The notes under the pieces were generated by a model that worked only from the letters and a program-made list of their open reading frames with translations, was not told where the DNA came from and searched no databases. The translations under genes were made by a program, and so were the position numbers. From Massilia sp. UMI-21 (lineage in GTDB: Bacteria; Pseudomonadota; Gammaproteobacteria; Burkholderiales; Burkholderiaceae_D): a stretch of 64,000 bases of DNA. The stretch spans positions 186,001 through 250,000 of the forward strand of contig CP063848.1 in the NCBI GenBank assembly GCA_015277795.1, in the 5' to 3' direction. This document shows positions 2,837-16,803 of this stretch, piece after piece; position 1 is the stretch's first letter, and each line of letters opens with the position of its first letter.

Positions 2837-4048
2837 ATGCTCAATGCTATGTCGTCTGTCTCATTTTGGGAAGGCCATATTGTCGACACCGTCCAGGAAC
2901 AAGAAGACGGGTCGCTGTTAATCGTTCTCGACACCTGCCCGGCAAGTGATGCCGTGTGCGGAGCGTGCCTCCAGCCTTGTGCCCTGGTGCATGAACGCCG
3001 AAGGCGTAAGGTGCGCGATCGTGACGTTCTGGACAAGCGCGTCTGGCTCGATGTGCCGGTTCGGCGGCTGGACTGTCATCACTGCAATGCACGGGTGGCC
3101 GAGCACATTGTTTGGCTTGACCGGGGAGCTCGCATTACGCACCGCGTGCGCCTTTGGGTCGAGGCGTTGGCGCAGCTGCTCCCGATAGCCCATGTGGCCC
3201 GACTGACCGGCCTGCACTGGCACACCATCAAGGACATCGATCATCGGCGGCTGAAACACCTGCATGGTGACTTCTCGGCAGAAGGCGTTCAGCGCTTGGT
3301 CATGGACGAATTCGCGCTGCACAAAGGCCACCGCTATGCCACTGTGGCCTTGGATGCCGAGCGAATGCGGGTGCTGTGGGTTGGAGAGGGTAATAGCCGG
3401 GAAGCGATCCGACCATTCTTCGAGCTGCTGGGAGAGCAAGGCTGTCAGCGAATCGAAGCCGTAGCCATGGACATGAACACGGCGATGGACCTCGAAGTTC
3501 GCCAGCAATGCCCGAACGCGGAAGTCGTCTACGACCTGTTTCACGTGGTGGCCCGCTTCGGCCGCGAAGTGGTAGACCGGGTTCGCGTCGACCAAGCCAA
3601 TGCCTTGCGTGCCGAATCAAAGGCCCGCAAGGTCATCAAGCGTAGCCGCTGGCTGTTACTGCGCAACCGCGACAACCTGAAAGCCGAACAGGCCGTCAAA
3701 CTGGAGGAGCTGCTGGCTGCCAACCAGCCTTTGGCGACGGTCTACCTGCTCAAGACCGAGTTGAAGGAAATCTGGTATGCCCCATCGGTCCGGGAAGGTG
3801 CTCGTCGATGGAAAACCTGGCTCAAACTCGCCCTTCAAAGCCAAATCGCTCCGGTAATCCAATTCGCCAAACGTTTGGCCAAATACCGGCGCGGCATCCT
3901 GGCTTCGGCCATCTATCCGATGAGCTCATCGATCCTGGAAGGCGTCAACAACCGCATCAAGGTCATCAAGCGCATGGCCTACGGATTTCGGGATGCATCT
4001 TATTTCTTCCTGAAAATCAAGGATGCGTTCCCCGGCAAAGCGCGATGA
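2837..4048 (+). CDS. ISL3-family transposase
   Basis: DDE transposase of 403 residues, a normal ISL3 length. The N-terminus carries a cysteine cluster (C34, C41, C44, C48, then C80 and C83) consistent with the family zinc-binding/HTH region. The catalytic triad is visible: D157 in VMDEFALHKG, D212 in AVAMDMNTAMD and E368 in SSILEGVNNRIK. The stop codon lies inside the right inverted repeat. ATG at 2837 is the first in-frame start and follows a 118-bp leader that would hold the promoter. No frameshift is seen, so the enzyme is probably functional. Confidence 0.95.
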   Translation: MLNAMSSVSFWEGHIVDTVQEQEDGSLLIVLDTCPASDAVCGACLQPCALVHERRRRKVRDRDVLDKRVWLDVPVRRLDCHHCNARVAEHIVWLDRGARITHRVRLWVEALAQLLPIAHVARLTGLHWHTIKDIDHRRLKHLHGDFSAEGVQRLVMDEFALHKGHRYATVALDAERMRVLWVGEGNSREAIRPFFELLGEQGCQRIEAVAMDMNTAMDLEVRQQCPNAEVVYDLFHVVARFGREVVDRVRVDQANALRAESKARKVIKRSRWLLLRNRDNLKAEQAVKLEELLAANQPLATVYLLKTELKEIWYAPSVREGARRWKTWLKLALQSQIAPVIQFAKRLAKYRRGILASAIYPMSSSILEGVNNRIKVIKRMAYGFRDASYFFLKIKDAFPGKAR

Positions 4049-4051
4049 ACC
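4028..4051. repeat. Right terminal inverted repeat of the ISL3-type element
   Basis: Imperfect inverted partner of 2719-2742; read on the minus strand it starts GGTTCATCGCG. It contains the transposase stop codon. Confidence 0.85.
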
Positions 4052-4059
4052 TTATCTTT
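4052..4059. repeat. Right 8-bp target-site duplication of the ISL3-type element
   Basis: Exact second copy of TTATCTTT found at 2711-2718, immediately after the right inverted repeat. Confidence 0.9.
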
Positions 4060-4113
4060 TCGCGCTGGCGCTCGTGTAAATATTATCGACACGGGCGGGC
4101 GCCGCTGGAGGAT

Positions 4114-4725
4114 TCAGAGCACGCGGCGGTAGGTGGCGCGCACCAGTTCGCGGTCGCCGCAGTCGAAGTGCCACCATTCGGTATTGATGCCGAAGAAGCC
4201 GGCCTGCAGCATCCCTTCACGCAGCAGGCGACGGTTGGCCACCTGCGCCTCGCTGAGCTTGCCGGCCGCCAGGAAGCCTTCTTCCAGCGCCGGGTGCGAC
4301 AGGTCGGTCATATCGTCGAAGCCGGTGCCCATGTCGAGCTCGCGGCCCGCTTCGTCGAGCAGGGTGATGTCGAGGGCCATGCCGTACGAGTGGATCGAGC
4401 CGCGCACCGGGTTGGCCAGGTACATCTGCAGGCCGGTGCCCGCCAGGGCATCCCACAACTGCTGCTGCACGCGCTGCGGACGCAGGGCGTCCAGCACCAG
4501 GGCGGTGTAGCCGGGGCGGCGCTCCTTGAGCCAGGCCACGAGCTGCTCGAGGGCCGCGGCGGCGTCGCGGTGCAGCCAGGCGCAGTCGAAGGGCGAGTAC
4601 AGGTCACGTCCGACGAAGTTGTTGCCGGTCGCGTAGCGCAGGTCGATCGCAATCCCTTCGATGCTGGTGAGATGGCGGAATTCGGGGCTGCCGGCGATGT
4701 CTTCGCTGGCCACAGTGTCACTCAT
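4114..4725 (-). CDS. ddpX: D-alanyl-D-alanine dipeptidase, VanX/DdpX type
   Basis: Zinc dipeptidase (M15D) that hydrolyses free D-Ala-D-Ala. All expected ligands are present in 203 residues: H112 and D119 in SIHSYGMALD, E183 and H186 in TEWWHFD, and R82 in the ALRPQ segment. No signal peptide is seen, so it acts in the cytoplasm, as DdpX does. Its ATG overlaps the stop of the upstream LysR gene (ATGA), which implies translational coupling. In glycopeptide-resistant bacteria VanX gives resistance together with VanA and VanH, which are absent here. With the neighbouring murein salvage genes and dadA, feeding D-Ala into catabolism is the more likely role (inference). Confidence 0.9.
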   Translation of the reverse strand: MSDTVASEDIAGSPEFRHLTSIEGIAIDLRYATGNNFVGRDLYSPFDCAWLHRDAAAALEQLVAWLKERRPGYTALVLDALRPQRVQQQLWDALAGTGLQMYLANPVRGSIHSYGMALDITLLDEAGRELDMGTGFDDMTDLSHPALEEGFLAAGKLSEAQVANRRLLREGMLQAGFFGINTEWWHFDCGDRELVRATYRRVL

Positions 4726-5663
4726 GATGCACCAGCTTTTTCGAGACAGGCGCGCGCGGTCGCGCCGATACAATTGGCCAGCTCCCGCGCTCCGTGCGAC
4801 AAGGGAGAGTGGCTGGCACTGAGCAGATACAGGTGCACCGGCATCGCAGGCACCCACTGGCGGCACTGCACCTTGGCTGGGTCGGCCGAGGCTGCGGTGA
4901 AGGGGTCGAGCACGGCCAGGCCGGCGCCGGCTTCCACCAGCGAGCGTGCGATCTGGTAGGTCTGCACCACCGTGTGGTAGACCGGCTGCACACCCTGCGC
5001 TTCGCAGGCTGCGACCACGATCTCGCCCAACGGGTCGCCGTCGTTCAGGCCGATCAGCTCCCCGGTCAATCCTTCGACGCCGAAAGGCCTGGACAGCGCT
5101 TCCTCGCTCCAGGTGCCGCGCGGCGCCATCACGGTCAGCATCCCATGGGCGATCGGCTCGGCCACGATGCCCGGGTGGCGCGGGTCTTGCAGCGACAGCG
5201 CCATGTCGGCTTCGCCCAGGCGCAGCGCGTTCACGATCTCGCTGGTGTGCTGGGTCGCCAGCTCGCAGCGCGCCTCCGGGAAGTCGCGGCGCCATACCGT
5301 CATCGCCTGCGGCAGCACGCCGATCGCGATGGTCGGCGTCGACACCAGGCGCACGGTCTCGACCGCGCGGCTCTTCAGGCTGGCGGCAAGGCGGCGGATG
5401 CCCTGCAGGTCGCGGTTCAGCTTCTCGGTTTCGGCGAACAGGCGGTGCGCCTCGGGCTTCGGATAGAGCTTGCCGCGCACGCGCTCGAACAGGGGCATGC
5501 CCAGCTGCAGCTCGGCATGTTGCAGGACTTTCGTCACCGCCGGCTGCGAGATGTGGAGAACCTGGGCGGCACCGCTGATGGTGCCGACCTGCATGATGGC
5601 GTGGAAAACTTCGATATGACGCAGGCGCATCGCTTTATCCTTGAGTAGAGACTCCGCGCGCAT
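4722..5663 (-). CDS. LysR-family transcriptional regulator
   Basis: An N-terminal winged helix-turn-helix (RHIEVFHAIMQVGTISGAAQ followed by SQPAVTKVL) precedes a substrate-binding domain typical of LysR regulators. The ORF gives 313 residues, but the family start is more likely the internal ATG at 5630 (MRLRHIEVF), giving 302. The HTH most resembles the OccR/NocR-like branch. It overlaps the dipeptidase gene by 4 nt and starts 48 bp after the amidase stop, so it may be on the same transcript. The inducer is unknown; a murein dipeptide or D-amino acid is a reasonable inference from the coupled gene. Confidence 0.88.
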   Translation of the reverse strand: MRAESLLKDKAMRLRHIEVFHAIMQVGTISGAAQVLHISQPAVTKVLQHAELQLGMPLFERVRGKLYPKPEAHRLFAETEKLNRDLQGIRRLAASLKSRAVETVRLVSTPTIAIGVLPQAMTVWRRDFPEARCELATQHTSEIVNALRLGEADMALSLQDPRHPGIVAEPIAHGMLTVMAPRGTWSEEALSRPFGVEGLTGELIGLNDGDPLGEIVVAACEAQGVQPVYHTVVQTYQIARSLVEAGAGLAVLDPFTAASADPAKVQCRQWVPAMPVHLYLLSASHSPLSHGARELANCIGATARACLEKAGAS

Positions 5664-5711
5664 GGCGCGGATTTTGCGAAGGATACAGGGAAAATCCGGC
5701 TGGGGCGACCG

Positions 5712-6752
5712 TCACGGCGCGATCACGACAGCCGGGCTGGCCGGAACCGCCGGTACGGGCGGTGCCGCCGGCATCGGAACGGGGGGCGTGGCCGGGCTCG
5801 GCGCCGGGCTGGGCTGGGCCGGCGTCGGCATCGGCATCGGTACCGGCACCGGCTGCGCCGGCATGGGCACCGGCGCCGCCGGGACCGGCGTCGTCGCCGG
5901 TGGCAGCAGCGGCACCGGCGTGGTGATCACCGGCGGCGGCATGATCACCGGCAGCGGCGCATTGGCCGGGGTGGTCAGGACTTCCAGCAATGCTGCGGTT
6001 TCCGCATCCGGATTGCCCGAGAAATCCGCCGGACGGTACTTCATCTGGAAAGCCTGCAGCACGGTGCGGGTCTGCGGGTCGAGCATCCCGGTCTGCTGGA
6101 TGGCGAAACCGTGGGTCGCCAGCTTGCGCTGGAACCAGAACATGTCCGGCAGCGTCGCATCGAAGATCGGGCGCACGAGGGCGACGCGGTTCGCGTCCGG
6201 CCACAGGATCAGGCCTTCGCTGGCCAGGCGCGCCCACGGGAACAGCGGTCCCGGATCCTGCTTGCGTTGGGGCGCGATGTCGCTATGGCCGAGCACGTTC
6301 TCGGGAGCGATGCCGTGGCGCTGGACGATGTCCTTGAGCAGCGGGATCAGGGCCTCCACCTGGGCCTGCGGGAAGGGGTAGAACATCCGGCCGCCGTCCG
6401 GGGTGCTGGTCCAGCCCGGGTTGACGATTTCGATGCCGATCGAGCTGTTGTTGAGCTGCGTATAGTTCTTCCAGCTCGAATTGCCGGCATGCCAGGCCGC
6501 GCGGTTTTCATCGACCAGGCGGTAGATGATCGGCTGGGCATGATTCGTGACGAGGTAGTGAGCGCTTACCTCTTTCTCGGTCAGGATCTTGATCGAGCTC
6601 GGGTTGTCGGACACGGTGTAGTGCAGCACCAGGAAGCGCGCACGGCTCGACTGGCCCTTGGCGTTATAGGTGGTATCGATCTTCGGGCCGACCGGGCCGG
6701 TGGCGCAGCCTGCCAGCAAGGCGAGAATGAGGGGGACGATCAGGTTTTTCAT
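5712..6752 (-). CDS. amiD: N-acetylmuramoyl-L-alanine amidase lipoprotein, AmiD-like
   Basis: Zinc amidase that cleaves the bond between MurNAc and L-Ala, freeing stem peptides. The N-terminus is a lipoprotein signal with lipobox LAGC (C16), so the enzyme is probably membrane-anchored in the periplasm. An Amidase_2 domain (about 33-190) has LHYT and HSDIAPQRKQDPG, carrying the zinc and catalytic residues. A PG_binding_1 domain follows (about 197-258). Unlike E. coli AmiD it ends in an 85-residue Pro/Ala/Val/Met-rich tail (from about 260), perhaps a wall-spanning linker. It lies 20 bp downstream of the kinase gene. Confidence 0.92.
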   Translation of the reverse strand: MKNLIVPLILALLAGCATGPVGPKIDTTYNAKGQSSRARFLVLHYTVSDNPSSIKILTEKEVSAHYLVTNHAQPIIYRLVDENRAAWHAGNSSWKNYTQLNNSSIGIEIVNPGWTSTPDGGRMFYPFPQAQVEALIPLLKDIVQRHGIAPENVLGHSDIAPQRKQDPGPLFPWARLASEGLILWPDANRVALVRPIFDATLPDMFWFQRKLATHGFAIQQTGMLDPQTRTVLQAFQMKYRPADFSGNPDAETAALLEVLTTPANAPLPVIMPPPVITTPVPLLPPATTPVPAAPVPMPAQPVPVPMPMPTPAQPSPAPSPATPPVPMPAAPPVPAVPASPAVVIAP

Positions 6753-6772
6753 CGAGGTGGAATCCTGTTTGA

Positions 6773-7732
6773 TTAAAGGGCGCAGCGCGCCGGCTCTGCT
6801 GCCAGCCGCGCGGCCGCATAGTGGGCGCGCATGCCGGTCTGGGTGAGTATGGTATCCGGGGGCAGCGCCGCACGCATGGTTTCGACGATGGCCGGATGCA
6901 GTTCGGCGGCGCGGCCGGCCAGTGCGACCGGGCGCGCACCGAAACGCTTGATCAGCGCCTGCGCCAGCCTGGCCAGTTCGCGGCCGGCTTCGCGCAGGAT
7001 GGCGGCGGCGGCCGGATCGCGTTCGGCGGTGGCGGCGACCGCGATCGCCAGCTTGCCGACTTCGCCGCGCTCACGACCATAGATGAACTGGCGCGAGAAC
7101 GACCAGTCCGAGCCGCCCACGTGCTGGAACACGGCATGCGCCATCGGCGAGCTTTCCCAGGCGCCCGGCTGCTCGTCTTCCCTGCGCCAGATCTGGCGAA
7201 GGGCTTCGCGCGCGATCCAGAAGCCGCCACCGCCGTCGTCCAGCACCACGCCGCGCCCGCCGGCGCGGTGGAAACCCCCGCCGGCGTCGATATAGGCGCC
7301 GATCGAGCCGGTACCGGCATACACCAGATAGCCCTCGCCCGGCTTGAAGCTGGCGAGGTAGGCGATTTCGATGTCGTTGCTGAGCACGACCGCCTGCGGG
7401 TCGAGGCCGAGCAGCTCGCCCAGGCTGCGCTGCAGCGGTCCGCCATCGCCGCCGAAACCGGTCACGCCGGCGCGCACCGCCGCCGGCCGGCCATGCGGCA
7501 GTACGGCGTCGGCGATGGCGCCGAAGGTCGCCTGGACGGCATCGCGTCCTTCGGCACTGCCCATTTGCAGGGCCGACAGCCCGGCCGCCGTTCCTTCGGC
7601 AACGATGCGCCCGCCCGGCGCCGCGAGGGCCCAGCGTGTCTGGGTGCCGCCGGCGTCGATGCCGAGGCCGAGATGTTGCGCTTGTTGCGCTTGTTGCGCT
7701 TGTTGCTGCTGTTGCTGTTCGGGATTAAGCAT
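6773..7732 (-). CDS. BadF/BadG/BcrA/BcrD-family sugar kinase (GlcNAc/MurNAc kinase)
   Basis: ASKHA-fold ATP-dependent kinase of 319 residues. The phosphate-1 loop is LGIDAGGTQTRWAL (22-35), followed by further family glycine motifs (AGTGSIGAYI, DDGGGGFWI). Members phosphorylate N-acetylglucosamine, and some also N-acetylmuramic acid (Clostridium MurK). In this operon, with murQ and no anmK, amgK or murU nearby, it is the obvious source of MurNAc-6P and GlcNAc-6P (inference). The first 20 residues are a Gln/Ala run coded by tandem repeats and look dispensable. A downstream start cannot be excluded, but no other ATG precedes the phosphate loop. Confidence 0.85.
   Translation of the reverse strand: MLNPEQQQQQQAQQAQQAQHLGLGIDAGGTQTRWALAAPGGRIVAEGTAAGLSALQMGSAEGRDAVQATFGAIADAVLPHGRPAAVRAGVTGFGGDGGPLQRSLGELLGLDPQAVVLSNDIEIAYLASFKPGEGYLVYAGTGSIGAYIDAGGGFHRAGGRGVVLDDGGGGFWIAREALRQIWRREDEQPGAWESSPMAHAVFQHVGGSDWSFSRQFIYGRERGEVGKLAIAVAATAERDPAAAAILREAGRELARLAQALIKRFGARPVALAGRAAELHPAIVETMRAALPPDTILTQTGMRAHYAAARLAAEPARCAL
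7675..7701. repeat. 9-bp tandem repeat (GTTGCGCTT x3) in the kinase N-terminus
   Basis: Three exact copies of GTTGCGCTT, continued by degenerate GTTGCTGCT and GTTGCTG units to about 7719, encode the poly-Gln/Ala segment (residues 5-19) of the minus-strand kinase. The unit length is a multiple of three, so copy-number change would keep the frame. Confidence 0.85.
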
Positions 7733-7827
7733 GGCCCGCGAGTGTAGGTTGTCGGTCCGCCGGCATGCGCATGCATGCTGGCGGTCCTTGCATGAACCGA
7801 GGTGATGTACCCGGCTTGTTCAATATA

Positions 7828-9435
7828 TCAAGGCTTGCGCCATGCCTGCACGCGCGCGCTTTCGTTGCCGAGGCGGTCGACCGCGCTGACCAGCACCAGG
7901 TCGGCGCCGCCGAGCTTGGCGTCATCCGCGACGGTCCAGCCCACGCGCAGCGCCGGCACTACCGCGAAGCGCCACGCGCCCCCATGGCGGGACCAGACCG
8001 CGTACAGCGCGTTCGCCTTGCCGGCCTTGAGCCTGAGCGCGACGCCATCCTTGCCGCGCGTGGCCGTGACCAGCGGGGTTCCCGGGCCGTCCGATTTCAG
8101 CCAGGGGGTGGCCGGCACCAGCGCCTGGCCGGCGTAGGGTCCGGCGCGCAGCAGATCGCTGATGCCCTGGCGATTCTGGCTCAGGGCCGCCATGCTGAAG
8201 TGGACGTGGCCGCTCGACTGTGGACGCTGGCGCGTCAGGGCGATCTGGTCCAGGATTTCCTTCGGCTCGTAGGTCTTGGTCGGCGCCGCCGCGCCGATGC
8301 GGCTGGTGAACAGGCCCGGCCAGATATGGCGGCCTTGCGTGTTCTGGCTGAGCCAGTAGTCGAGCAGCACCGGGTAGGACTGGGCGGTCTGCGCGATCGG
8401 CCAGTACAGCTGCGGCGTGAAATAGTCGAGCCAGCCCTTCTCCAGCCACAGCTCGGCATCCGCGTACAGCTTGTCGTACTGCGAAAAGCCCGAGATGCCC
8501 GGCGGGCGGCGGTCCGGGCGCCCCATGCCGAACGGGCTGATGCCGAAGCGCACCCAGCTCTTTTCCTGGTGGATGCCCTTGTACATGGCCTCGATCAGGC
8601 GGTTGACGTTGTCGCGGCGCCAGGAAGGGCGATCGAGCTTGCCGCCACCCAGCAGATAGCGTTCCCAGGCCGGGCCGTCGGGGAAGTCGAGTTCCTTGGC
8701 CGACGGCTTGCCGCTGTTGTCCAGCGCCTGCGCATTGCCGGCCACATCCGGCGCGGCAATCGGGTAGGGGTAGAAGTAATCGTCGATGTGTACGCCGTCG
8801 ATGTCGTAGCGGCGCACCACGTCGAGGATGACGTCCATGGTCTGCTTCGACGCAGCCTCTTCGCCCGGGTCCATCCACATGAACTTCCCGTAACGCTTGA
8901 CCGCGTGCGGAATGGTGTTGGTGATGTGGTTCGGCGCGGCTGGCGAGCGCGCATTGTCGTGGCGCGCGCGGTAGGGGTTGAACCAGGCATGCAGCTCGAG
9001 GCCGCGCGCATGCGCTTCGGCGACCCAGAACTTGAGCGGGTCATACCAGGGCATTGGCGCCTTGCCCTGGGCGCCGGTCAGGTACTCGGACCAGGGCTCG
9101 ATCTTCGATGGGTAGATCGCATCGGCCGCCGGACGCACCTGCAGCACGATCGCGTTCAGGTTCAGGCTCACCGCGCGATCCAGGATCGCGATCGCCTCCG
9201 CCTGCTGTTGCGCGGCAGGCAAGCCCGGCTTGCTCGGCCAGTCGATATTGGCGACCGTCGAGACCCAGGCGGCGCGGAATTCGCGCGGCGCGGGCGGCGG
9301 CGTGTCGCCTGCCCCGGCTTCGGGAACGGTCGGCTGGGTGGTGCAGGCAGTCAGGAAGCTGCCCAGGGTCAGGGCACCGGCCATGCCGGCCATGCCGGCC
9401 AGGGTGAACGCACGTTTTTTCAGGTTGGGCTTCAA
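7828..9435 (-). CDS. digH: GHL10 (DUF187) glycosidase lipoprotein, DigH/YddW-like
   Basis: Lipoprotein of 535 residues: basic start MKPNLKKR, hydrophobic stretch, lipobox LTAC near residue 31, Pro-rich linker, then a glycosyl-hydrolase-like family 10 domain beginning REFRAAWVSTVANIDWPSK. E. coli YddW (DigH) of this family cuts peptide-free (denuded) peptidoglycan glycans. That matches its place between an amidase that makes denuded glycan and genes that use the sugars. The start is a TTG at 9435 with an AAGGAA ribosome site about 6 nt upstream; the next ATG (9393) would lose the basic signal-peptide n-region. Confidence 0.85.
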   Translation of the reverse strand: MKPNLKKRAFTLAGMAGMAGALTLGSFLTACTTQPTVPEAGAGDTPPPAPREFRAAWVSTVANIDWPSKPGLPAAQQQAEAIAILDRAVSLNLNAIVLQVRPAADAIYPSKIEPWSEYLTGAQGKAPMPWYDPLKFWVAEAHARGLELHAWFNPYRARHDNARSPAAPNHITNTIPHAVKRYGKFMWMDPGEEAASKQTMDVILDVVRRYDIDGVHIDDYFYPYPIAAPDVAGNAQALDNSGKPSAKELDFPDGPAWERYLLGGGKLDRPSWRRDNVNRLIEAMYKGIHQEKSWVRFGISPFGMGRPDRRPPGISGFSQYDKLYADAELWLEKGWLDYFTPQLYWPIAQTAQSYPVLLDYWLSQNTQGRHIWPGLFTSRIGAAAPTKTYEPKEILDQIALTRQRPQSSGHVHFSMAALSQNRQGISDLLRAGPYAGQALVPATPWLKSDGPGTPLVTATRGKDGVALRLKAGKANALYAVWSRHGGAWRFAVVPALRVGWTVADDAKLGGADLVLVSAVDRLGNESARVQAWRKP

Positions 9436-9456
9436 ATCCGTTCCTTCATTCTATTC

Positions 9457-10599
9457 TCAGACTTTGACGAACCACCGCTTGCGCCACATGCCGAGCGCGA
9501 TCGCGAACATGCAGGCGTTGAACAGGATGGCATATAACAGCGAGGTATTGGCGGCGCCCAGCGGCAGCGCCTTGATCGGGCCGTACAGCATGCGGCCGAG
9601 CGACAGCTGGCTGCCGTCCGGCTGTGCCAGCTTGATAAAACCGAACATCTTGGCGACGAAGCCCGAGAACGCAAAGATGAACAGCGCGTTCATGCCGTAG
9701 ATGACGAACGGCGTGGCCCAGGCGGCCGCGCGCTCGCGCACCACCTTGTAGGGATTGGCGTCGAGCAGCCAGTAGAACATGCTGAAGGCGAGCAGCGCCC
9801 AGCCGCTGGTCCACAGGCAGTAGGATACCGTCCACAGGCTTTTATTGATCGGCATGAGCACCGCGTCCAGGCTCGAGCCCAGGGCCAGCAGCACCAGCCC
9901 GGCAAACAGCATCCACGCGGTCTGCTCGACGCGCGCCAGCTTCAGGGCCAGCAGGCGCCCGGCGAGCACGCCGAACAGCTGGCTGCACAGGGCGGGGATG
10001 GTGCTGACCAGGCCTTCCGGATCCCAGGTCTTCGATTGCACCCACAGGTGGCCGTCCAGCAGCATGCGATCGACGTACGCGCCGAAATCCTGGCCCGGCG
10101 CCAGCACGCCGGCCCCGATGCCCGGCACCGGCACCCACAGCATCAGCACCGAGTACAGCGCCAGCAGGCCGGCGATCACGGCCAGTTGGGCGCGCCAGCC
10201 GAGGTAGACGACGATCGGCGCGGCCAGCAGCGTGCACAGGGCGATGCGCTGCAGCACGCCCGGAATGCGCACGGTCTCGAAGTCGAAGCGCGGGATCAGG
10301 TTCAGCAGGAAGCCGATCAGGAAAATCAGCGCGGCGCGCCTGGCCAGCTTGATCAGCAGGCGTGGCTTGTCGGCGCCGGCGGCGGCCAGCCGCCCCAGCG
10401 ACAAGGTCATGGCGACGCCGCCGATGAACAGGAAGAAGGGGAAGATGCAGTCGGTGAAGGTCCAGCCGTTCCATTTGGCGTGGGCCAGCTGCGCATGCAG
10501 GTTGCCCCAGTCGCCCGGATTGTTCACGAGGACCATCGCGGCGATGGTAAAGCCGCGGAAGGCGTCGAGCGAGGTCAGGCGCACGGGTACATCGCGCAT
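9457..10599 (-). CDS. nagX: NagX/DUF5009 (heparan-acetyltransferase-like) membrane protein
   Basis: Inner-membrane protein of 380 residues with about ten predicted helices. It begins RLTSLDAFRGFTIAAMVLVN and carries FTDCIFPFFLFIGG, the signature of the COG4299/DUF5009 family, related to heparan-alpha-glucosaminide N-acetyltransferase. Family members are recurrently found in GlcNAc and MurNAc utilisation clusters (nagX) and have been proposed to transport or acetylate amino sugars. Here it lies 21 bp before the glycosidase gene and follows the permease gene after a 145-bp gap that holds a REP-like repeat pair. Uptake of murein sugars across the inner membrane is the favoured inference. Confidence 0.85.
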   Translation of the reverse strand: MRDVPVRLTSLDAFRGFTIAAMVLVNNPGDWGNLHAQLAHAKWNGWTFTDCIFPFFLFIGGVAMTLSLGRLAAAGADKPRLLIKLARRAALIFLIGFLLNLIPRFDFETVRIPGVLQRIALCTLLAAPIVVYLGWRAQLAVIAGLLALYSVLMLWVPVPGIGAGVLAPGQDFGAYVDRMLLDGHLWVQSKTWDPEGLVSTIPALCSQLFGVLAGRLLALKLARVEQTAWMLFAGLVLLALGSSLDAVLMPINKSLWTVSYCLWTSGWALLAFSMFYWLLDANPYKVVRERAAAWATPFVIYGMNALFIFAFSGFVAKMFGFIKLAQPDGSQLSLGRMLYGPIKALPLGAANTSLLYAILFNACMFAIALGMWRKRWFVKV

Positions 10600-10627
10600 T
10601 ACTGCATGGTCTCCTTGTGATTGTTCT

Positions 10628-10734
10628 GTAGGGTGGTCGGCTCGGCCGACCGCGCGTTCAACCTGCTGATGAATGGACGATACATCTGCTCATGTGATGG
10701 CTGGACGCGTGGGCGGGAGACCCGCCCACCCTAC
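10628..10734. repeat. REP/BIME-like pair of inverted palindromic repeats
   Basis: Two copies of a roughly 30-bp unit face each other in the gap between the permease and nagX genes. One starts GTAGGGTGGTCGG (10628) and the other, read on the minus strand from 10734, starts GTAGGGTGGGCGG. Each has an internal palindrome (GGTCGG..CCGACC and GGGCGGG..CCCGCCC) and ends CGCG(T). This is the architecture of REP/BIME elements. It could modulate mRNA stability between the two genes. Confidence 0.7.
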
Positions 10735-10744
10735 GTACTTATGG

Positions 10745-12010
10745 CTACTTTTTACCGAACTCGGGGTCGATCTTCACCAGCGCCGCCATGATGAAGGCGG
10801 GAACGGTCGACAAACACGCCCAGATGAAGAAGTGCTGGTAGCCGAGGTATTCCTGCAGCTCGCCGCTCCACATGCCCGGCACCATCATGCCGAGCGCCAT
10901 CAGGCCGGTGCAGATCGCGTAGTGGGCGGTCTTGTGCTCGCCCTCGGAGACCATGATCATGTACAGCATCATCGCGGTGAAGCCGAAGCCGTAGCCGAAC
11001 TGCTCGACGGCCAGCGAGGCGCACACCACGGCGAAGCTGGTCGGCTGGGCCTGCGACAGGTAGACGAACACCAGGTCCGGCAGGTGCACCGCGAACACCA
11101 TCAGCCACAGGCAGCGCTTCAGGCCCAGGCGCGAGATCAGGTAGCCGCCGGCCAGTCCGCCCAGGGTCAGGAACGCGATGCCGATGGTGCCGTAGGCGAT
11201 GCCGTACTGCTCGGTGGTGAGGCCCAGGCCGCCATTCGCCAGCGGGTCTTTCAGGAAAGGCGCCACCAGCTTGAGCAGCTGGGCCTCGCCCAGCCGGAAG
11301 GTCAGGATGAAACCCAGGATCAGCCAGATGTCGCGCTTGCGGAAGAACAGCGCGAAGGTCACGAAGAAGTCGCGCAGCGGATTGCTGCTGCCTTTCACCG
11401 CGTGGTCGCTGTCCGGCTTGGGCAGGACCAGCTGGTGCCACATGAAGGCCGCGAAGAACAGACCGGCCAGCACGAAGAACACGATCGACCAGGCCTGGTT
11501 GACGTCGCCCAGCTGGGTAGCAAGGTAGCCGGCCAGCACCACCAGCGGGCCTTGCCCCGCCAGGGTCGCCAGGCGGTAGAAGGTCGAGCGCACCCCGACG
11601 AAGGCCGCCTGCTGCTGCTGGCGCAGGCCGAGCATGTAGAAGCCGTCGGCCGAGATGTCATGGGTGGCGGAGCTGAATGCCATCAGCCACATCACGGCCA
11701 GGCTGGCGACGAAGAAGTTCGGCAGGTGCAGCGACATGCCCACCGCGACCAGCGAGGCCGCGACCGCCAGCTGCAGCAGCACGGTCCAGCGGCGCTTGGT
11801 GCCGAACATGTCGACGATCGGCGACCACAGGGGCTTGATCACCCACGGCAGGTACAGCAGGCTGGTATAGAAGGCGATGTCGGAGTTCGATACGCCCATG
11901 TCCTTGTACATGATGACCGAGAGGCTCATCACCACGACGTAGGGGATGGCCTGGGCGAAGTACAGGGACGGCACCCAAAACCACGGGCTCTTGGCTTGCG
12001 AAGTCTGCAT
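10745..12010 (-). CDS. ampG: MFS permease, AmpG-like muropeptide transporter
   Basis: Twelve-helix major facilitator protein of 421 residues. MQTSQAKSPWFWVPSLYFAQ leads into helix 1, then the loop D-M-F-G-T-K-R-R between helices 2 and 3, and later GYLISRLGLKR. The pattern (SLYFAQAIPYVVVMSLSVIMYKDMG) matches the AmpG/SLC33-like branch, which imports GlcNAc-anhydroMurNAc and its peptides. The ATG at 12010 is chosen because sequence further upstream loses all family similarity. It lies 59 bp downstream of murQ with a small hairpin between. AmpG identity rests on family resemblance plus gene context; another murein-sugar permease is possible. Confidence 0.8.
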   Translation of the reverse strand: MQTSQAKSPWFWVPSLYFAQAIPYVVVMSLSVIMYKDMGVSNSDIAFYTSLLYLPWVIKPLWSPIVDMFGTKRRWTVLLQLAVAASLVAVGMSLHLPNFFVASLAVMWLMAFSSATHDISADGFYMLGLRQQQQAAFVGVRSTFYRLATLAGQGPLVVLAGYLATQLGDVNQAWSIVFFVLAGLFFAAFMWHQLVLPKPDSDHAVKGSSNPLRDFFVTFALFFRKRDIWLILGFILTFRLGEAQLLKLVAPFLKDPLANGGLGLTTEQYGIAYGTIGIAFLTLGGLAGGYLISRLGLKRCLWLMVFAVHLPDLVFVYLSQAQPTSFAVVCASLAVEQFGYGFGFTAMMLYMIMVSEGEHKTAHYAICTGLMALGMMVPGMWSGELQEYLGYQHFFIWACLSTVPAFIMAALVKIDPEFGKK

Positions 12011-12035
12011 AGTTCTTTCGTGGTCGTCAGGTGCG

Positions 12036-12062
12036 GTACGCCTCGAAGGACTTGAGGCGTAC
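12036..12062. other. Hairpin between murQ and the permease gene
   Basis: Perfect 9-bp inverted repeat GTACGCCTC / GAGGCGTAC with a 9-nt loop, just after the murQ stop and 26 bp before the permease start. It has no T-run, so it is more likely an mRNA-processing or attenuating hairpin than a terminator. Confidence 0.5.
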
Positions 12063-12069
12063 GGACGTC

Positions 12070-12948
12070 TTACGCGATGGCTTCGCGCACGCTGCCGTGC
12101 GCCGCCTCCAGGAGGGCTTGCGCCTGCTCGACACTGGTTTGTTTGATCAGGGCCACCACCGCGGTCTTGACGTGGTAGCCGCACTGCTCGAGCACCGCCT
12201 GCGCGGCTGCGTCGTCGGCGCCGGTGGCGAACACGGTCAGGCGGATGGCGCGTCGCACCAGCTTGGCGTTGGTAGCCTTCAAGTCTACCATCAGGTTGCC
12301 GTACACCTTGTGCAGGCGGACCATCAATGCGCTGGAAAAGGTGTTCAGTGCGATCTTCTGCGAGGTACCGGCCTTCAGGCGGGTGGAGCCCGAGATGACT
12401 TCCGGCCCGGTGTCGAGCGTGATGCCGATCTCGGCATCCTTGGCCACCGGGGCGTCGGCATTGTTGGCGAAACCGACCGTCAGCGCGCCTGCCGTGCGTG
12501 CGGCGTCCAACGCGCCCAGCACGTAGGGCGTGAAACCGGATGCGGCGATCAGCAGCACCACGTCGTTGGCGCCCACGTTCACGTTGCGCAGGTCGGCGGC
12601 GCCCTGGTCGAAATCGTCCTCGGCGCCTTCGACTGCGACGAACATCGCGTCCTGGCCGCCGGCCAGCAGCGCGACCGCGCGCTCGTGCGGCCACGAGAAG
12701 GTCGGGTACAGCTCGACGCTGTCGAGCACACCGAGGCGGCCCGAGGTGCCGGCGCCGACGTAGATCAGGCGCCCGCCCGCTTCCACGCGCGGCAGCGCGG
12801 CGGTGACGGCGGCGGCGATGCGCGGCGCGGCGGCGCGTACCGCGTTGACGGCGTTGAGCTGGTCGTCGACCAGGACCTTGACCAGCTCCACGGTCGGGTA
12901 CTGGTCGAGGGAAGCGTGGTCCTGGGCCGGGGTTTCGGTTTTCAGCAT
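12070..12948 (-). CDS. murQ: N-acetylmuramic acid 6-phosphate etherase
   Basis: Cytoplasmic SIS-domain lyase that splits the lactyl ether of MurNAc-6P to give GlcNAc-6P and D-lactate, the step that joins murein recycling to amino-sugar metabolism. The 292-residue length is normal. The SIS core RLIYVGAGTSGRLGVLDSVE and the downstream GFANNADAPVAKDAEIGI segment, with catalytic-type acidic residues, are clear. It is the first gene of the minus-strand salvage operon, preceded by a 126-bp gap holding a possible regulator site. A MurNAc-6P source is needed; the BadF-type kinase of the same operon is the candidate. Confidence 0.96.
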   Translation of the reverse strand: MLKTETPAQDHASLDQYPTVELVKVLVDDQLNAVNAVRAAAPRIAAAVTAALPRVEAGGRLIYVGAGTSGRLGVLDSVELYPTFSWPHERAVALLAGGQDAMFVAVEGAEDDFDQGAADLRNVNVGANDVVLLIAASGFTPYVLGALDAARTAGALTVGFANNADAPVAKDAEIGITLDTGPEVISGSTRLKAGTSQKIALNTFSSALMVRLHKVYGNLMVDLKATNAKLVRRAIRLTVFATGADDAAAQAVLEQCGYHVKTAVVALIKQTSVEQAQALLEAAHGSVREAIA

Positions 12949-12981
12949 TGCCGTCTCTTCTGGTGCGGAGTGATCGATAAA

Positions 12982-12998
12982 ACCAGTGTAATACCAAT
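12982..12998. promoter_or_regulatory. Possible GntR-type operator upstream of murQ
   Basis: The sequence accagtgtaataccaat, 34 bp upstream of the murQ start, shares the pattern ACCA-N5/6-ATACCAAT with the region upstream of gntR (13919-13938). The half site ATTGGTAT resembles operators of NagR/DasR-type regulators, but here the halves are direct rather than inverted. Binding is inferred only. Confidence 0.35.
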
Positions 12999-13074
12999 TG
13001 CCCTGGACGGCCCATGAAAGCTGGGGCCGTCGTCATGCCGAAAAGTTATGCTGCGCCAGGGCGCCCGATAAGCC

Positions 13075-13815
13075 TCAGGCGCTCGGCCGGCGCAATTCGG
13101 CAACGAAATCGTAATGGTCGCTGAGACAGTAGGAATGCGTCAGCTCCACCGGCTCGCCCGATTCCAGGTAGCCGACCCGCGTGATGAACAGCACCGCGCG
13201 GCCTTCCGGCACGTCCAGGCGCGCCGCCAGTTCGGCCGACGCATTCATGGCGCGCAGGTGCTGCAGCGCGCGCACCGGCATGTGTCCGGTCTTGGCCAGG
13301 TGCGCGTACAGCGAGCCGCCGACGTTCTCGGGACGCGGCAGCACGGTGGCCGGAATCACGCTGACTTCATAGGCCATCACCACCTCGTCGGCCAGGCGCA
13401 GGCGTTCGAGGCGCGCCACCCGCGTGTTCGGCGACAGGCCGAGCGACAGCTGTTCGTCGGCGTCGGCCAGCATCACCTCGCGCCGCAGCCAGTGGCTGCC
13501 GGGCGTGTAGCCGCGCTGCTGCAACTGCTCGGAGAAACTGGACAGGTCCGACAGCGGCTGCTCGATGCGCGGCGCGATGTAATTGCCGGAACCGCGCCGC
13601 CGCACCACCAGGCCCTGTTCGACCAGTTGGTCGATCGCCTTGCGCGCGGTCACGCGCGACACGTCGAGCTGCTCGGACAGCGTGCGCTCGGAAGGCAGCG
13701 CCTGGTCGGCCTGGTAGCGGCCGTCGCGCACGTCTTGTGCGAGCTTGCGCGCCAACTGCATGTACAGTGGCGAGTTGTCGTTCAGGTCGACGTGGAAGGT
13801 GGGCTGGCTTGTCAT
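13075..13815 (-). CDS. GntR/HutC-family transcriptional regulator with UTRA domain
   Basis: Regulator of 246 residues: N-terminal winged helix (about 12-78; SPLYMQLARKLAQDVRDGRY and LPSERTLSEQLDVSRVTARKAI), then a UTRA ligand domain (about 95-240). NagR/DasR/NagQ regulators of amino-sugar metabolism have this architecture and respond to GlcNAc-6P or related phosphosugars. The start at 13815 (MTSQPTFHVDLN) is preferred over an upstream in-frame ATG that adds 40 residues foreign to the family. It lies between murQ and the divergent beta-lactamase-fold gene, well placed to control both (inference). Confidence 0.88.
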   Translation of the reverse strand: MTSQPTFHVDLNDNSPLYMQLARKLAQDVRDGRYQADQALPSERTLSEQLDVSRVTARKAIDQLVEQGLVVRRRGSGNYIAPRIEQPLSDLSSFSEQLQQRGYTPGSHWLRREVMLADADEQLSLGLSPNTRVARLERLRLADEVVMAYEVSVIPATVLPRPENVGGSLYAHLAKTGHMPVRALQHLRAMNASAELAARLDVPEGRAVLFITRVGYLESGEPVELTHSYCLSDHYDFVAELRRPSA

Positions 13816-13918
13816 CGGCGTGGTGAGAATGTCACGTGCAGTGTAATGGCAACATTCGCTTCCGACACGGCGCATCCCATGAAAAAGCTTTGTATATGCA
13901 TGCTCCTGGCTTATGAGC

Positions 13919-13938
13919 ATACCACTTGATACCAATAT
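13919..13938. promoter_or_regulatory. Possible GntR-type operator in the gntR / hydrolase intergenic region
   Basis: ATACCACTTGATACCAATAT contains two direct ATACCA units 10 bp apart (one helical turn) and matches the site-like sequence upstream of murQ. It lies between the divergent gntR and hydrolase genes. Recognition by the GntR protein is a guess from position and similarity. Confidence 0.35.
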
Positions 13939-14060
13939 AAATGGGTTATGCCAAGGCCACGGCTATTCATTTGGCAATCCTTCCTGTCACTCCGTATCCT
14001 CATCCGCAGATTGCCAAGTACTTTATCGATGAGCAGCCGCCAGGCCGACAAGGAGACCGG

Positions 14061-15449
14061 ATGAACGAGCGCAGGCGAAACCTGTTGGGCATGGCGCTGC
14101 TGGGCATGGCCGAGCCACTGTTCGCAGCGCCGTTCGCGCCCGCGAGCTCACCTGGCATGCCGGCCGCCGCACGCCGGGCGCTGGACGCCGAACTGGCGGC
14201 CGTCGTCAACGATCCGGCGATGCAACTGGCCAGCCTGTCGGTGGTGGCGGTCCGCGCCGGCCAGCCGGTATATGAACAGGCGTTCGGGCGCCGCTTCATC
14301 GGCAAGGGCAGCCTGCCCGACCGGCCGGCCACGCCTGCAACCCTGTTCCGGATCGCCTCGATCTCCAAGATGATGACCACGCTGGGCCTGATGCGCCTGG
14401 TCGAGGCGGGCCGCATGGACCTCGAGGCCGACGTCTCCGCCTACCTGGGCTTCGGCCTGCGCAACCCGCACTTCCCGGACCGCCCCATCACCCTGCGCAG
14501 CCTGCTCACGCATCGCTCGTCGCTGCGCGACGAAGGCGGCTATTCCTGGCCGCTGAGCACCGCGCTGAAGGACGTGCTGCTGCCGGGCGCACCGCTGTAC
14601 GGCGACGGCAAGATGTGGTCGAACCGGGCCGGACCGGGCGAGTACTTCACCTACTGTAACCTCGGCTGGGGAGTGATCGGCACGGCGATGGAACGCGTGA
14701 CAGGCGAGCGCTTCGACCTCTTGATGCAGCGCCTGCTGCTGCAGCCGCTCGGCATCGATGCCGGCTTCCTCCCTGCGGCGCTGCCACCCATGGCGCTGGA
14801 CAAGCTGGCCACCCTGTATCGCAAGCGCACGGTCGACACCGAGATCTGGAACGCCGAAGGCCCCTGGATACCTCAGGTGGACGACTTTTCGGTAACGCCG
14901 CCGGCGCTGCCCGCCGGTATCGCAAGCTACGTCCCCGGCACCAATGCCACCCCCTTCAGCCCGACCGGCGGGCTGCGCATCACCGCGCGCGACATGGGCG
15001 TCATCATGCGCATGCTGATGCACGGCGGCGTGCATGGCGACGGCCGAGACGGCGCCCGGCTGTTCCAGCGCAGCACGCTCGAGCGCATGTTCGCGCGCCA
15101 GTGGACCTTCGATGCCAAGGCCGGCAACGGCGATTCGCTGGGCGGCGTGTTCAATGCCTGGGGACTGGGCAATGCCCACTTTCCGGATCGGCCCGGCATG
15201 GCGCTGGTCGAAGGCGGCGGCTTCGACGCGGTCGGCCACCTGGGCGACGCCTATGGCCTGCGCTCGGTGTTCGCGGCCGACCTGGCGCGCGGCAACGGCA
15301 TGATCGTGCTGGCCGGCGGCAGCGCGGCCGACCCGGAACTGCAAAAAGGACGCTATTCGGCGCTGGCGCGCTACGAGGAGCGCATCCTGACGGCGCTGTA
15401 CCGTCATGCCATTGCCGGCAACGACGTCAGCCAACCGGCAGCAACATGA
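14061..15449 (+). CDS. Serine beta-lactamase-fold hydrolase (class C/EstB/DD-peptidase-like)
   Basis: Exported protein of 462 residues with a signal peptide (MNERRRNLLGMALLGMAEPLFAA). Active-site motifs of the class C beta-lactamase/penicillin-binding fold are present: SxxK as S-I-S-K in RIASISKMM, YxN as Y-C-N in TYCNLGWGVIG, and H-L-G in FDAVGHLGDAYG in place of KTG. Such proteins include D-aminopeptidases, DD-peptidases and esterases as well as beta-lactamases, so substrate cannot be read from sequence. Start 14061 has an AAGGAGA ribosome site. Its place between gntR and dadA suggests release of D-Ala or D-amino peptides in the periplasm (inference). Confidence 0.88.
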   Translation: MNERRRNLLGMALLGMAEPLFAAPFAPASSPGMPAAARRALDAELAAVVNDPAMQLASLSVVAVRAGQPVYEQAFGRRFIGKGSLPDRPATPATLFRIASISKMMTTLGLMRLVEAGRMDLEADVSAYLGFGLRNPHFPDRPITLRSLLTHRSSLRDEGGYSWPLSTALKDVLLPGAPLYGDGKMWSNRAGPGEYFTYCNLGWGVIGTAMERVTGERFDLLMQRLLLQPLGIDAGFLPAALPPMALDKLATLYRKRTVDTEIWNAEGPWIPQVDDFSVTPPALPAGIASYVPGTNATPFSPTGGLRITARDMGVIMRMLMHGGVHGDGRDGARLFQRSTLERMFARQWTFDAKAGNGDSLGGVFNAWGLGNAHFPDRPGMALVEGGGFDAVGHLGDAYGLRSVFAADLARGNGMIVLAGGSAADPELQKGRYSALARYEERILTALYRHAIAGNDVSQPAAT

Positions 15450-15558
15450 TGTCAATGCGTACATATACCGCGGTTATGACGCCCGGCAGCACTTTCATTG
15501 GCCCTTGTCGGGCCCGGAGCCTAAGCTCCCCCCTCGTCACCAATAAGAAGAGTGCAGG

Positions 15559-16803
15559 ATGCAGCAAGTATTAGTCATTGGCGGCGGTGTCGTCGGCCTG
15601 ACCTCGGCCTGGTGGCTGGCGGAAGCCGGCTACCGTGTCCGCCTCCTTGAACGCGCGCCCGAGGTCGGCAGCGGCTCCAGCTACGGCAATGGCGGACAGC
15701 TCAGCTACCGCTACGTGTCGCCGCTGGCCGACGAAGGCGTGCCGCTGAAGGCCCTGCAATGGATGTTCCAGGACACCGGCCCCCTGCACTTCCGCCCCGA
15801 AGCCGACCTGCGCCAGTACCGCTGGCTGGCCAGCTTCCTCGCCCACTGCCGCGCCGACGTCAACCGCCGTACCACCGCCAAGCTGCTAGAACTGGGCGAG
15901 CTGTCGCGCCAGGGCATGAAGCAGCTCGAAATCACGATTCCTCCCGAGGAGTTCGCGTGGCGCGACGCCGGCAAGCTGGTGGTGTACCGCTCGCGCGACG
16001 TGTTCGAGAAAGCGGCCGGCAAGCCCGGCGCCGGCGAGATCTGGTCGGCCGCCGACTGCGCCGCGCGCGAGCCTTCGCTGGCTGCCGCCGAGCCCATGCT
16101 GGCCGGCGGCATCTACAACAGCGGCGAAGCGGTGGCCGACTGCCACGCCTTCTGCGTGGCGCTGGCCGAGCGCCTGCGTGCCCATCCGCGCTTCGACGGC
16201 TTCGTCCATGGCGAGGCGCGTCGCCTGCTGGCCCAGGACGGGCGCAGCGGCCGCATCACCGGTATCGAACTGGACACCGGCACCATCCAGGCCGACGGCT
16301 ACGTGCTGGCGGCCGGCATCCAGAGCCGCACCCTGGCGGACACGGTCGGCATTTCGCTGCCGCTGTATCCGCTCAAGGGCTACAGCCTGACGGCGCCGAT
16401 CCGCACCGACGACGTGGCGCCCGAGATCAGCGTCACCGACTTCGAAAGAAAAGTGCTGTATGCGCGCATCGGCGACAAGCTGCGCGTGGCCGCCATGGTC
16501 GACATGGTCGGCGAAGACCTGAGCCACACCCCGAAACGGGTCGAGGGCCTGACCCGGCAGGTGAAGGAAACCATGCCGCGCGCGGCCGACTACTCCAGGA
16601 TCTCGGTCTGGGCCGGCCTGCGTCCCGCCACCCCGAGCAGTGCCCCGATCATCGGCGCCACGCCCTACGCCAACCTGTGGCTGAACGTCGGCCATGGCCC
16701 GCTGGGCTTTACCTTCGCCTGCGGCAGCGCCAGCCTGCTGGCCGGCGCGATGCAGGGCGAGACACCGCCGTTCGCACTGGATGGCCTGACCCTGCGCGCC
16801 TGA
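15559..16803 (+). CDS. dadA: D-amino acid dehydrogenase
   Basis: FAD-dependent oxidase of 414 residues that deaminates D-amino acids, chiefly D-Ala to pyruvate, passing electrons to the respiratory chain at the inner membrane. The FAD-binding Rossmann motif is at the start (VLVIGGGVVGLTSAWWLAE), followed by GSGSSYGNGGQLSY. The C-terminal GLRPATPSSAPIIG and LNVGHGPLGFTFACGSA are typical of DadA. It is 109 bp downstream of the hydrolase gene. No alanine racemase gene (dadX) is next to it. In this neighbourhood it would consume D-Ala freed by DacB, VanX and related peptidases. Confidence 0.93.
   Translation: MQQVLVIGGGVVGLTSAWWLAEAGYRVRLLERAPEVGSGSSYGNGGQLSYRYVSPLADEGVPLKALQWMFQDTGPLHFRPEADLRQYRWLASFLAHCRADVNRRTTAKLLELGELSRQGMKQLEITIPPEEFAWRDAGKLVVYRSRDVFEKAAGKPGAGEIWSAADCAAREPSLAAAEPMLAGGIYNSGEAVADCHAFCVALAERLRAHPRFDGFVHGEARRLLAQDGRSGRITGIELDTGTIQADGYVLAAGIQSRTLADTVGISLPLYPLKGYSLTAPIRTDDVAPEISVTDFERKVLYARIGDKLRVAAMVDMVGEDLSHTPKRVEGLTRQVKETMPRAADYSRISVWAGLRPATPSSAPIIGATPYANLWLNVGHGPLGFTFACGSASLLAGAMQGETPPFALDGLTLRA

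Follow-up and report, generated by a model that had tools for sequence, protein, structure and literature searches.

Eleven adjacent genes in the genome of Massilia sp. UMI-21, lying between positions 4114 and 16803 of the DNA analyzed here, form a conserved locus that appears to serve the salvage of peptidoglycan. The stretch, called the window below, spans 64,000 nucleotides (G000:C1:186001-250000) in a genome of 5.30 Mb that is complete in one contig. We read the locus, with a probability of about 0.6, as a locally regulated island for the catabolic salvage of peptidoglycan that would operate beside an anabolic recycling route encoded elsewhere in the chromosome. This reading builds on gene families, gene order, conservation, co-occurrence and an operator-like site, from which the enzyme activities are predicted. 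It partly supports the interpretation given in a preliminary description made from the letters of the window, and the eleven genes named there are all present, with families assigned here by Pfam and NCBIfam and start codons chosen by us.

Conservation of the locus

A MurQ search of a species-genome collection confirmed 255 places, of which the best 80 were kept; all counts out of 80 refer to these loci, eight of which are shorter than 20 kb (contig ends), and a gene was scored as present where tblastn gave a match of at least 40% identity. The closest named locus among these best 80 belongs to Massilia alkalitolerans (96%). The genes for the AmpG-like permease, the DigH-like glycan-cleaving protein, the BadF kinase and the AmiD-like amidase, called the four core genes below, are all present in 68 of the 80 loci, and at least one of them is present in 76. 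The co-occurrence in relatives that the preliminary description had proposed as a check is thus found, and its claim of one conserved locus uniting families for peptide removal, glycan cutting, import, BadF kinase, MurQ and D-alanine (D-Ala) handling holds. Taken singly, the ampG-like gene is found in 74 loci, the digH-like gene in 73, amiD in 71, the kinase gene in 70, vanX in 67, dadA in 65, lysR in 63, the beta-lactamase-fold gene in 56, nagX in 50, gntR in 49, pbp4 in 43 and spmAB in 22; these counts miss at least one digH-like gene, that of locus L061, which is visible as GHL10 by Pfam. Order and strand match those of the reference in 72 of the 80 loci, six of which hold just one or two of the nine genes compared, and 61 loci hold at least seven of the nine in the reference arrangement.

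In the window the minus strand carries, in the direction of transcription, gntR, murQ, the ampG-like gene, nagX, the GHL10 gene, the kinase gene, the amidase gene, lysR and the dipeptidase gene. Seven genes thus follow murQ in the same direction down to vanX, with gaps of 59, 145, 21, 95, 20, 48 and -4 bp, while the beta-lactamase-fold gene and dadA point in the direction opposite to gntR.

The kinase, MurQ and coexisting routes for MurNAc

MurQ, the etherase of N-acetylmuramic acid (MurNAc) 6-phosphate, is encoded at 12070..12948 (minus strand) and scores 311.3 bits against TIGR00274, just over the cut-off of 302. The proposed MurNAc kinase, a MurK-like member of the BadF/NAGK type (PF01869), is encoded at 6773..7732 (minus strand). 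In a family sample of 97 genomes, a kinase of the cassette type (at least 55% identity) occurs in 24, with a second class of BadF kinases elsewhere at about 27-35%. Full-length MurQ (E < 1e-80) occurs in 23 genomes, each of which has the cassette kinase (overlap 23; Fisher 2e-21, a value that ignores kinship). MurQ is above the TIGR00274 cut-off in eight of these genomes and scores 280-301 of 302 bits in the others; matches in the remaining genomes are short and weak, with best E values of 1e-7 to 9e-4, and presumably represent other SIS-domain proteins. Outside the family, the cassette kinase was found in 0 of 228 sampled genomes of the class at E 1e-40, with at most ten candidates scored in the larger genomes and with just two further members of the order among the genomes listed. 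One genome, G040, has the cassette kinase and no full-length MurQ; its cassette on contig C35 (L165) holds the kinase, ampG-like and digH-like genes, and the kinase match is split into two pieces within one 817-codon open frame.

A profile of the kinase built from 19 of 70 relatives and the window protein finds as its best PDB match the hexokinase of S. tokodaii (4.2e-19), followed by a probable N-acetylglucosamine (GlcNAc) kinase (4e-16), by 8zo3 (8.6e-16), which is named as a MurNAc/GlcNAc kinase and which we take to be from Clostridium, by human NAGK (1.5e-13) and by MurK (8ow9, 1.1e-4). The nearest NCBIfam model is that of the GlcNAc kinase NagK_SO3507 (72.2 of 370 bits). Residues were mapped from MurK by equal spacing from T116 to D141, no gap being assumed, with the MurK numbering taken from passages of PMC10465942, where S. 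tokodaii is also given as the organism of structure 2e2n. By this mapping D95 of MurK corresponds to D120, S133-P134-L135 to G158-G159-R160 and N119 to I144; D120, the mapped catalytic Asp, and both glycines are invariant in all 20 sequences and R160 in 19 of 20. According to the same source, the lactyl group cannot be accommodated by MurK homologues that have Glu or His at the S133/P134 positions. The cassette kinase has Gly there, neither Glu nor His, so its residues allow MurNAc as a substrate, short of proof. Family membership and linkage to MurQ agree with a putative MurNAc kinase, whose residues do not single out MurNAc as its substrate.

The preliminary description placed this kinase route in place of AnmK or AmgK-MurU. 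That part does not stand, since both AnmK and AmgK-MurU are encoded in the same chromosome. AnmK lies at G000:C1:1157994-1159070 (2.8e-133, and above the cut-off of NF007139); it occurs in 93 of the 97 genomes, fragmented in G091, and the four genomes without it are non-MurQ genomes. A protein of the APH family, beside genes that by eye resemble lptD, surA and pdxA, has AmgK as its best NCBIfam model (373.5 of 550 bits, below cut-off), and a nucleotidyl transferase encoded 16 bp after it scores 320.1 bits against the MurU model, above its cut-off of 250. Because an AmgK query matches 95 of the 97 genomes, AmgK is family background and no mark of the cassette. The other 22 genomes with MurQ all have MurU next to AmgK (22 of 22, 42-93% identity); with our genome counted in, and AnmK present throughout, each of the 23 MurQ genomes carries AnmK and AmgK-MurU as well. 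Such coexistence departs from the statement of Borisova and others (PMC5371407) that Beta- and Gammaproteobacteria have either MurQ or AmgK-MurU. Outside these classes, both routes seem to coexist in Tannerella forsythia too, which has MurQ (PMC5388701) and whose AmgK and MurU serve as tools in PMC13041923. The available passages of PMC13041923 and PMC5371409 mention no MurQ together with AmgK-MurU in betaproteobacteria, and the tree of 1,773 taxa in the latter may show cases. In one genome that also has the cassette, G045, a second MurQ (62%) at C1:575000-590000 (L199) is immediately preceded by a gene of the AnmK family, with a GntR gene (54%) close by.

A model of catabolic salvage

The first step of the proposed pathway would be the removal of stem peptides by an N-acetylmuramoyl-L-alanine amidase of the AmpDh2/AmiD type, which would leave denuded glycan. 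The protein (5712..6752, minus strand) combines an Amidase_2 domain (PF01510) with a peptidoglycan-binding domain (PF01471) and a lipobox-like LAGC, and its best PDB matches are AmpDh2 (4bpa, 1.3e-92) and then AmiD (2bh7, 2.6e-62). Denuded glycan would then be cut, mostly hydrolytically, by the GHL10 protein of the DigH/Cwp19 type (7828..9435, minus strand), to give GlcNAc-MurNAc with a reducing MurNAc end. This protein has the GHL10 domain (PF02638, 6.1e-59) and a lipobox-like LTAC; its closest solved structure is Cwp19 (5oq2, 2.6e-72), and it is set beside DigH of Escherichia coli by family only. Cwp19 is mainly a lytic transglycosylase. According to section 7 of PMC6016235 it leaves 1,6-anhydro ends, with reducing-end products that end in peptide-free MurNAc, and the authors suggest that hydrolysis might result where the stem is absent; DigH is described in passages of PMC12288456 as specific for denuded glycan and as gathering at the division septum. 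We infer the reducing product of the amidase and GHL10 pair by joining these two points, the peptide-free reducing ends made by Cwp19 and the specificity of DigH for denuded glycan.

Import of GlcNAc-MurNAc would fall to the AmpG-family permease of the major facilitator superfamily (10745..12010, minus strand), which has AmpG as its best family, matches AmpG in the PDB (9c3f, 3.2e-18) and is the sole match in its own genome to two AmpG queries, with 28% identity to the canonical AmpG of genome G070. AmpG of T. forsythia imports this disaccharide, according to PMC7670621. Inside the cell a NagZ-type GH3 enzyme of the nag locus would split GlcNAc-MurNAc, and the BadF kinase would turn the MurNAc into MurNAc-6-phosphate. 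Because the product would be MurNAc and not anhydroMurNAc, AnmK would be unable to serve and the BadF kinase would be needed. MurQ would convert MurNAc-6-phosphate to GlcNAc-6-phosphate and D-lactate, and NagA and NagB of the nag locus would finish the pathway. This locus (L138, C1:1684000-1703900) encodes, above cut-off, NagA (261.5 of 225.65 bits) and the GH3 beta-N-acetylhexosaminidase (NF003740, 216.7 of 207) and, as best matches below cut-off, NagB-II (270.3 of 430) and NagK (149.7 of 370). Of the two GH3 matches in the genome, the one outside the nag locus has a signal-like start and lies beside a frame that by eye is GH1-like; it looks like a secreted beta-glucosidase.

From the peptide side, D-Ala-D-Ala would be cleaved by the dipeptidase and D-Ala oxidized by DadA. 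The dipeptidase, of the M15 family and DdpX/VanX-like (4114..4725, minus strand; PF01427, 1.6e-30), carries SIHSYGMALD and EWWH, which we take to be zinc-site motifs. It scores below the NCBIfam cut-offs (PRK10178, 145 of 176 bits; dipept_VanX, 58 of 320), and by eye no signal peptide was seen in it. DadA, a D-amino acid dehydrogenase (15559..16803, plus strand), scores 410.3 bits against NF001933, above the cut-off of 383. Next to dadA, at 13941..15449 (plus strand), lies the gene for a hydrolase of the beta-lactamase/DD-peptidase fold (PF00144, 7.5e-42) with SISK and YCN motifs, for which AmpH is the best NCBIfam model (62.1 of 266 bits).

The NagX-like protein (9457..10599, minus strand) was counted in the preliminary description among the uptake proteins; a homologue of membrane N-acetyltransferases is the better reading. 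It keeps the HGSNAT_cat domain, and its best NCBIfam model is the transmembrane glucosamine N-acetyltransferase NagX_SO_3504 (NF046061), at 189.7 bits against an equivalog cut-off of 480. A profile built from the window protein and 14 sequences selected from the 50 found (15 in all) matches human HGSNAT (3.5e-39); counted along the alignment, H40, invariant in 15 of 15, aligns with H297, the catalytic histidine of HGSNAT in section 7 of PMC9007349. The same section treats NagX as distant kin of the putative transporter MurT and prefers an acetyltransferase role. We also considered that NagX might reverse de-acetylation of the cell's own denuded glycan by SddA, and rejected this since PF04748 is found in 0 of 97 genomes against 2 of 14 controls, other deacetylases not having been searched.

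A putative operator for murQ

The GntR-UTRA (HutC-type) regulator is encoded at 13075..13815 (minus strand; PF07702, PF00392), with an open frame that reaches 13935 beyond the chosen start. An operator-like direct repeat, the conserved 18-mer TTGGTATTACACTGGTTT, lies at 12980..12997 (minus strand), 32 bp before the chosen murQ start. It is found before murQ without mismatch in 27 of the 80 loci and with at most three mismatches in 52, and in 1600 mononucleotide shuffles the best match never had fewer than five. In the 52 loci, which were selected by this match, column constancy (the share of the commonest base) is 95%; for the flanks of 20 nt the figures are 60% and 51%. A related repeat, TTGGTATCAAGTGGTAT, lies at 13919..13935 (minus strand) between the divergent gntR and beta-lactamase-fold genes, and a repeat like it is found with a strict regular expression in 13 of 49 relatives. 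The GntR protein likely acts on the putative murQ operator and would probably control murQ and the genes after it through the conserved repeat; by such control the catabolic branch would be switched apart from anabolic recycling by AnmK, AmgK and MurU. TACACT inside TTGGTATTACACTGGTTT is a possible -10 box.

In its own 5.3 Mb genome TTGGTATTACACTGGTTT occurs exactly once, and with three mismatches at one further site, C1:69079; no site was found within four mismatches in six other stretches of the genome that were scanned. An operator that belongs to a wider nag regulon, which we had entertained, is unsupported. The LysR-type regulator (4722..5663, minus strand; PF03466, PF00126) overlaps vanX by 4 bp. 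Its best NCBIfam model, which it matches far below cut-off, is PRK11013 (111.6 of 288 bits), which we take to be E. coli LysR, a diaminopimelate sensor; the score is a possible hint of a peptidoglycan-peptide signal.

Weighing the evidence

Several observations weigh against a regulated catabolic island. The relatives compared are close kin, and in a control two neighbors that border dadA, and for which we know of no wall function, are conserved nearby as well: YchJ in 57 of the 80 loci and the gene for an acyl-CoA carboxylase in 56. Gene order among close kin is thus partly a matter of shared descent. Four MurQ loci of Duganella lack all four core genes, and nagX is missing from 30 of the 80 loci, including all 18 named Duganella, Pseudoduganella or Rugamonas. 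The AmpG-like protein stands below the cut-off of TIGR00901 (174.6 of 350 bits), and the best named model for the binding protein encoded upstream of the window, the glutathione-binding GsiB, is matched far below its cut-off (93.3 of 594 bits). A scan for promoter and terminator consensus sequences gave nothing beyond chance. The murQ site is kept in 15 loci (14 of Massilia and one of a Janthinobacterium metagenome-assembled genome) that have no adjacent gntR match, so that the link between GntR and operator is no more than likely. In the region of G158-G159-R160 the hexokinase reads GGRG and human NAGK reads GGWG; as NAGK shares the Gly and the broad S. tokodaii hexokinase shares R160, the residues show no more than that the kinase could accept MurNAc. 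Finally, anhydro ends are possible products of the GHL10 protein, by analogy with the mainly lytic Cwp19. Concerning conservation, eight rearranged loci (L058, L061, L070, L071, L074, L077, L078 and L079) from Undibacterium, a Burkholderiales metagenome-assembled genome and uncultured betaproteobacteria all lack the YchJ and carboxylase neighbors, and six of the eight keep the four core genes; their retention is stronger evidence of conservation than plain synteny.

If the cassette kinase were a second GlcNAc or broad amino-sugar kinase, AnmK would feed MurQ as in E. coli and the locus would be an E. coli-like catabolic branch gathered in one place. AnmK is present in our genome and in all 23 MurQ genomes, the closest model and structure for the kinase are those of NagK_SO3507 and the S. 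tokodaii hexokinase, and Cwp19, the nearest solved GHL10 protein, makes anhydro ends in the part of PMC6016235 cited above. However, AnmK is found in most genomes with or without MurQ, while the distribution of the cassette kinase mirrors that of MurQ with almost no exception, and the nag locus already has a separate kinase that is closer to NagK and 32% identical to that of the cassette; we consider this alternative distinctly unlikely. That PBP4, the amidase and the GHL10 protein belong to wall-remodeling families would fit a housekeeping cluster for division or wall remodeling with the sugar genes as passengers, but the conserved core includes MurQ and the kinase, and the kinase is patchy (24 of 97 genomes), unlike division genes, which makes such a cluster very improbable.

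Compatible with the enzymology of catabolic salvage, and in our judgment somewhat short of even odds, is the explanation that recycling by the locus is confined to the cell's own wall, to products of turnover and division, and that the adjoining TonB receptor and binding protein serve other substrates. The lipobox-like motifs of the amidase and the GHL10 protein, as in AmiD and DigH, and the septal position of DigH (PMC12288456, in the passages cited) agree with it, as do the variation of the receptor and the lack of a close named model for the binding protein. It has to contend with the presence of the binding protein near the cassette in nine of eleven genomes and of the receptor in eight, and with the clusters of L070, L077 and L061 described below. 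On this evidence we favor the view that the adjoining receptor, binding protein and LdcA point to the use of peptidoglycan from outside.

Adjoining genes and possible use of outside peptidoglycan

The eleven-gene block stands as the preliminary description drew it, but 4114-16803 is not the full extent of the locus, which SpmAB, PBP4, a family-5 binding protein, a TonB receptor and LdcA adjoin; its left edge is set merely by an insertion element and the start of the window, and its right edge at dadA is our judgment. The 3' part of an spmAB-like gene with a Gate domain (10..492, plus strand; PF07670), whose start lies before the window and which adjoins pbp4 in relatives, is followed at 504..2012 (plus strand) by the gene for a D,D-carboxypeptidase of the PBP4/DacB type (Peptidase S13; PF02113, 3.3e-95), outside the coordinates first given and near the cassette in the 43 loci counted above. 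The DNA that precedes the window (L145, C1:170000-186000) carries an LD-carboxypeptidase gene (S66; best NCBIfam model muramoyltetrapeptide carboxypeptidase, 156.3 of 378 bits), the TonB receptor and the family-5 binding protein, and then spmAB and pbp4, which extend into the window. In eleven genomes whose cassette surroundings were compared over a limited stretch length (G011, G018, G027, G040, G048, G056, G060, G063, G067, G070 and G079), pbp4 is present in ten, the binding-protein gene in nine, the TonB receptor in eight and LdcA in five; G011 and G048 have pbp4 about 11 kb and 17 kb from vanX, respectively. The receptors, which form a large family, fall into three groups by identity, with three genomes at 82-86%, three at 65-69% and two at 44-47%. 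The Undibacterium cluster of L070 holds receptor, binding protein, a YkuD L,D-transpeptidase, an AstE/AspA-fold protein and a VanY carboxypeptidase; L061 has, by Pfam, a family-5 binding protein, permease and ATP-binding cassette ATPase in an Opp-like-looking run of five genes, and L077, from a metagenome-assembled genome, has receptor and LdcA. In the four Duganella loci without core genes (L049, L060, L065 and L066), a TonB receptor (44-45%) and LdcA (58-61%) lie directly 3' of murQ, and lysR is present in three.

Carried further, these neighbors suggest a peptidoglycan-utilization locus, the counterpart of a polysaccharide-utilization locus, in Massilia-type betaproteobacteria; with all its parts taken jointly we regard this as doubtful. 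The receptor and a periplasmic binding protein would import fragments of foreign walls, AmpDh2 and a hydrolytic GHL10 enzyme acting on denuded glycan would give reducing GlcNAc-MurNAc, and NagX, where present, would re-acetylate de-N-acetylated fragments. MurK and MurQ would burn the sugar under control of GntR, responding to a sugar phosphate, and of LysR, while the cell's own wall would be recycled anabolically by AmgK-MurU.

Relation to known systems

The preliminary description saw the unusual part in the assembly of singly known steps. This holds for the wider gene set, but an operon of MurNAc kinase, MurQ and AmpG is already known in T. forsythia (PMC5388701, PMC5790795). That operon, Tanf_08345-08385 (ampG, ybbC, murT, murK, murQ and others), shares with the Massilia locus an AmpG-family permease, a BadF-type MurNAc kinase and MurQ as one unit and serves the scavenging of muropeptides and MurNAc, according to passages of the same papers and of PMC7670621. 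The Massilia locus adds the AmpDh2-type amidase, the GHL10 enzyme, the NagX-type protein, the dipeptidase, DadA, GntR and LysR; no ybbC domain was found in the eleven genes scanned, the rest of the genome not having been searched. Pseudomonas and Caulobacter share AnmK and adjacent AmgK-MurU with the Massilia genome in their anabolic AnmK-MupP-AmgK-MurU route, but in passages of PMC5371407 and PMC13046382 they are without MurQ, whereas the Massilia genome has both branches. NagX of chitin and glucosamine operons shares the HGSNAT_cat domain and the catalytic His, the Massilia protein differing in its place in a peptidoglycan locus and in its score below the equivalog cut-off. E. coli has single recycling steps that resemble those of the Massilia locus. 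Most of them are shared with its catabolic recycling (AmpG, NagZ, AmpD, AnmK, MurQ, LdcA, DdpX, DadA) and with DigH and AmiD, and Massilia differs in that many of the genes lie together, a further BadF kinase is encoded and AmgK-MurU is present as well.

No paper on such a locus in Massilia or its relatives was found in the open-licence literature. We would regard the locus as a variant of MurK-MurQ-AmpG salvage in which the coexistence with AmgK-MurU in betaproteobacteria, the logic of pairing GHL10 enzyme and kinase, and the wider gene set are notable. It makes testable how a cell separates its catabolic from its anabolic MurNAc route, with the local operator as candidate answer, it explains in chemical terms why a MurNAc kinase would stand next to an enzyme for denuded glycan, and it provides a genetic entry to bacteria that may consume the walls of other bacteria.

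Other features

The 145-bp gap between the ampG-like gene and nagX contains GC-rich, repeat-like sequence (10624-10744), with GTAGGGTGGGCGGG and a second copy on the opposite strand at two mismatches; within the window there are two matches, no excess over chance. Between pbp4 and vanX, and outside the system, an ISL3-family transposase gene (2837..4048, plus strand; PF01610) sits in DNA of lower GC content, and no terminal inverted repeat pair of at least 12 nt was found around it within 2560-4120. A bacterial serpin (PF00079) is encoded inside the Undibacterium peptidoglycan cluster (L070, 7782-9134, minus strand). At 2029-2631 of the window, on the minus strand, a small protein read by eye ends in a PEP-CTERM-like sorting signal (VPEPASLALLGLGLVGLGLKRRRKA).

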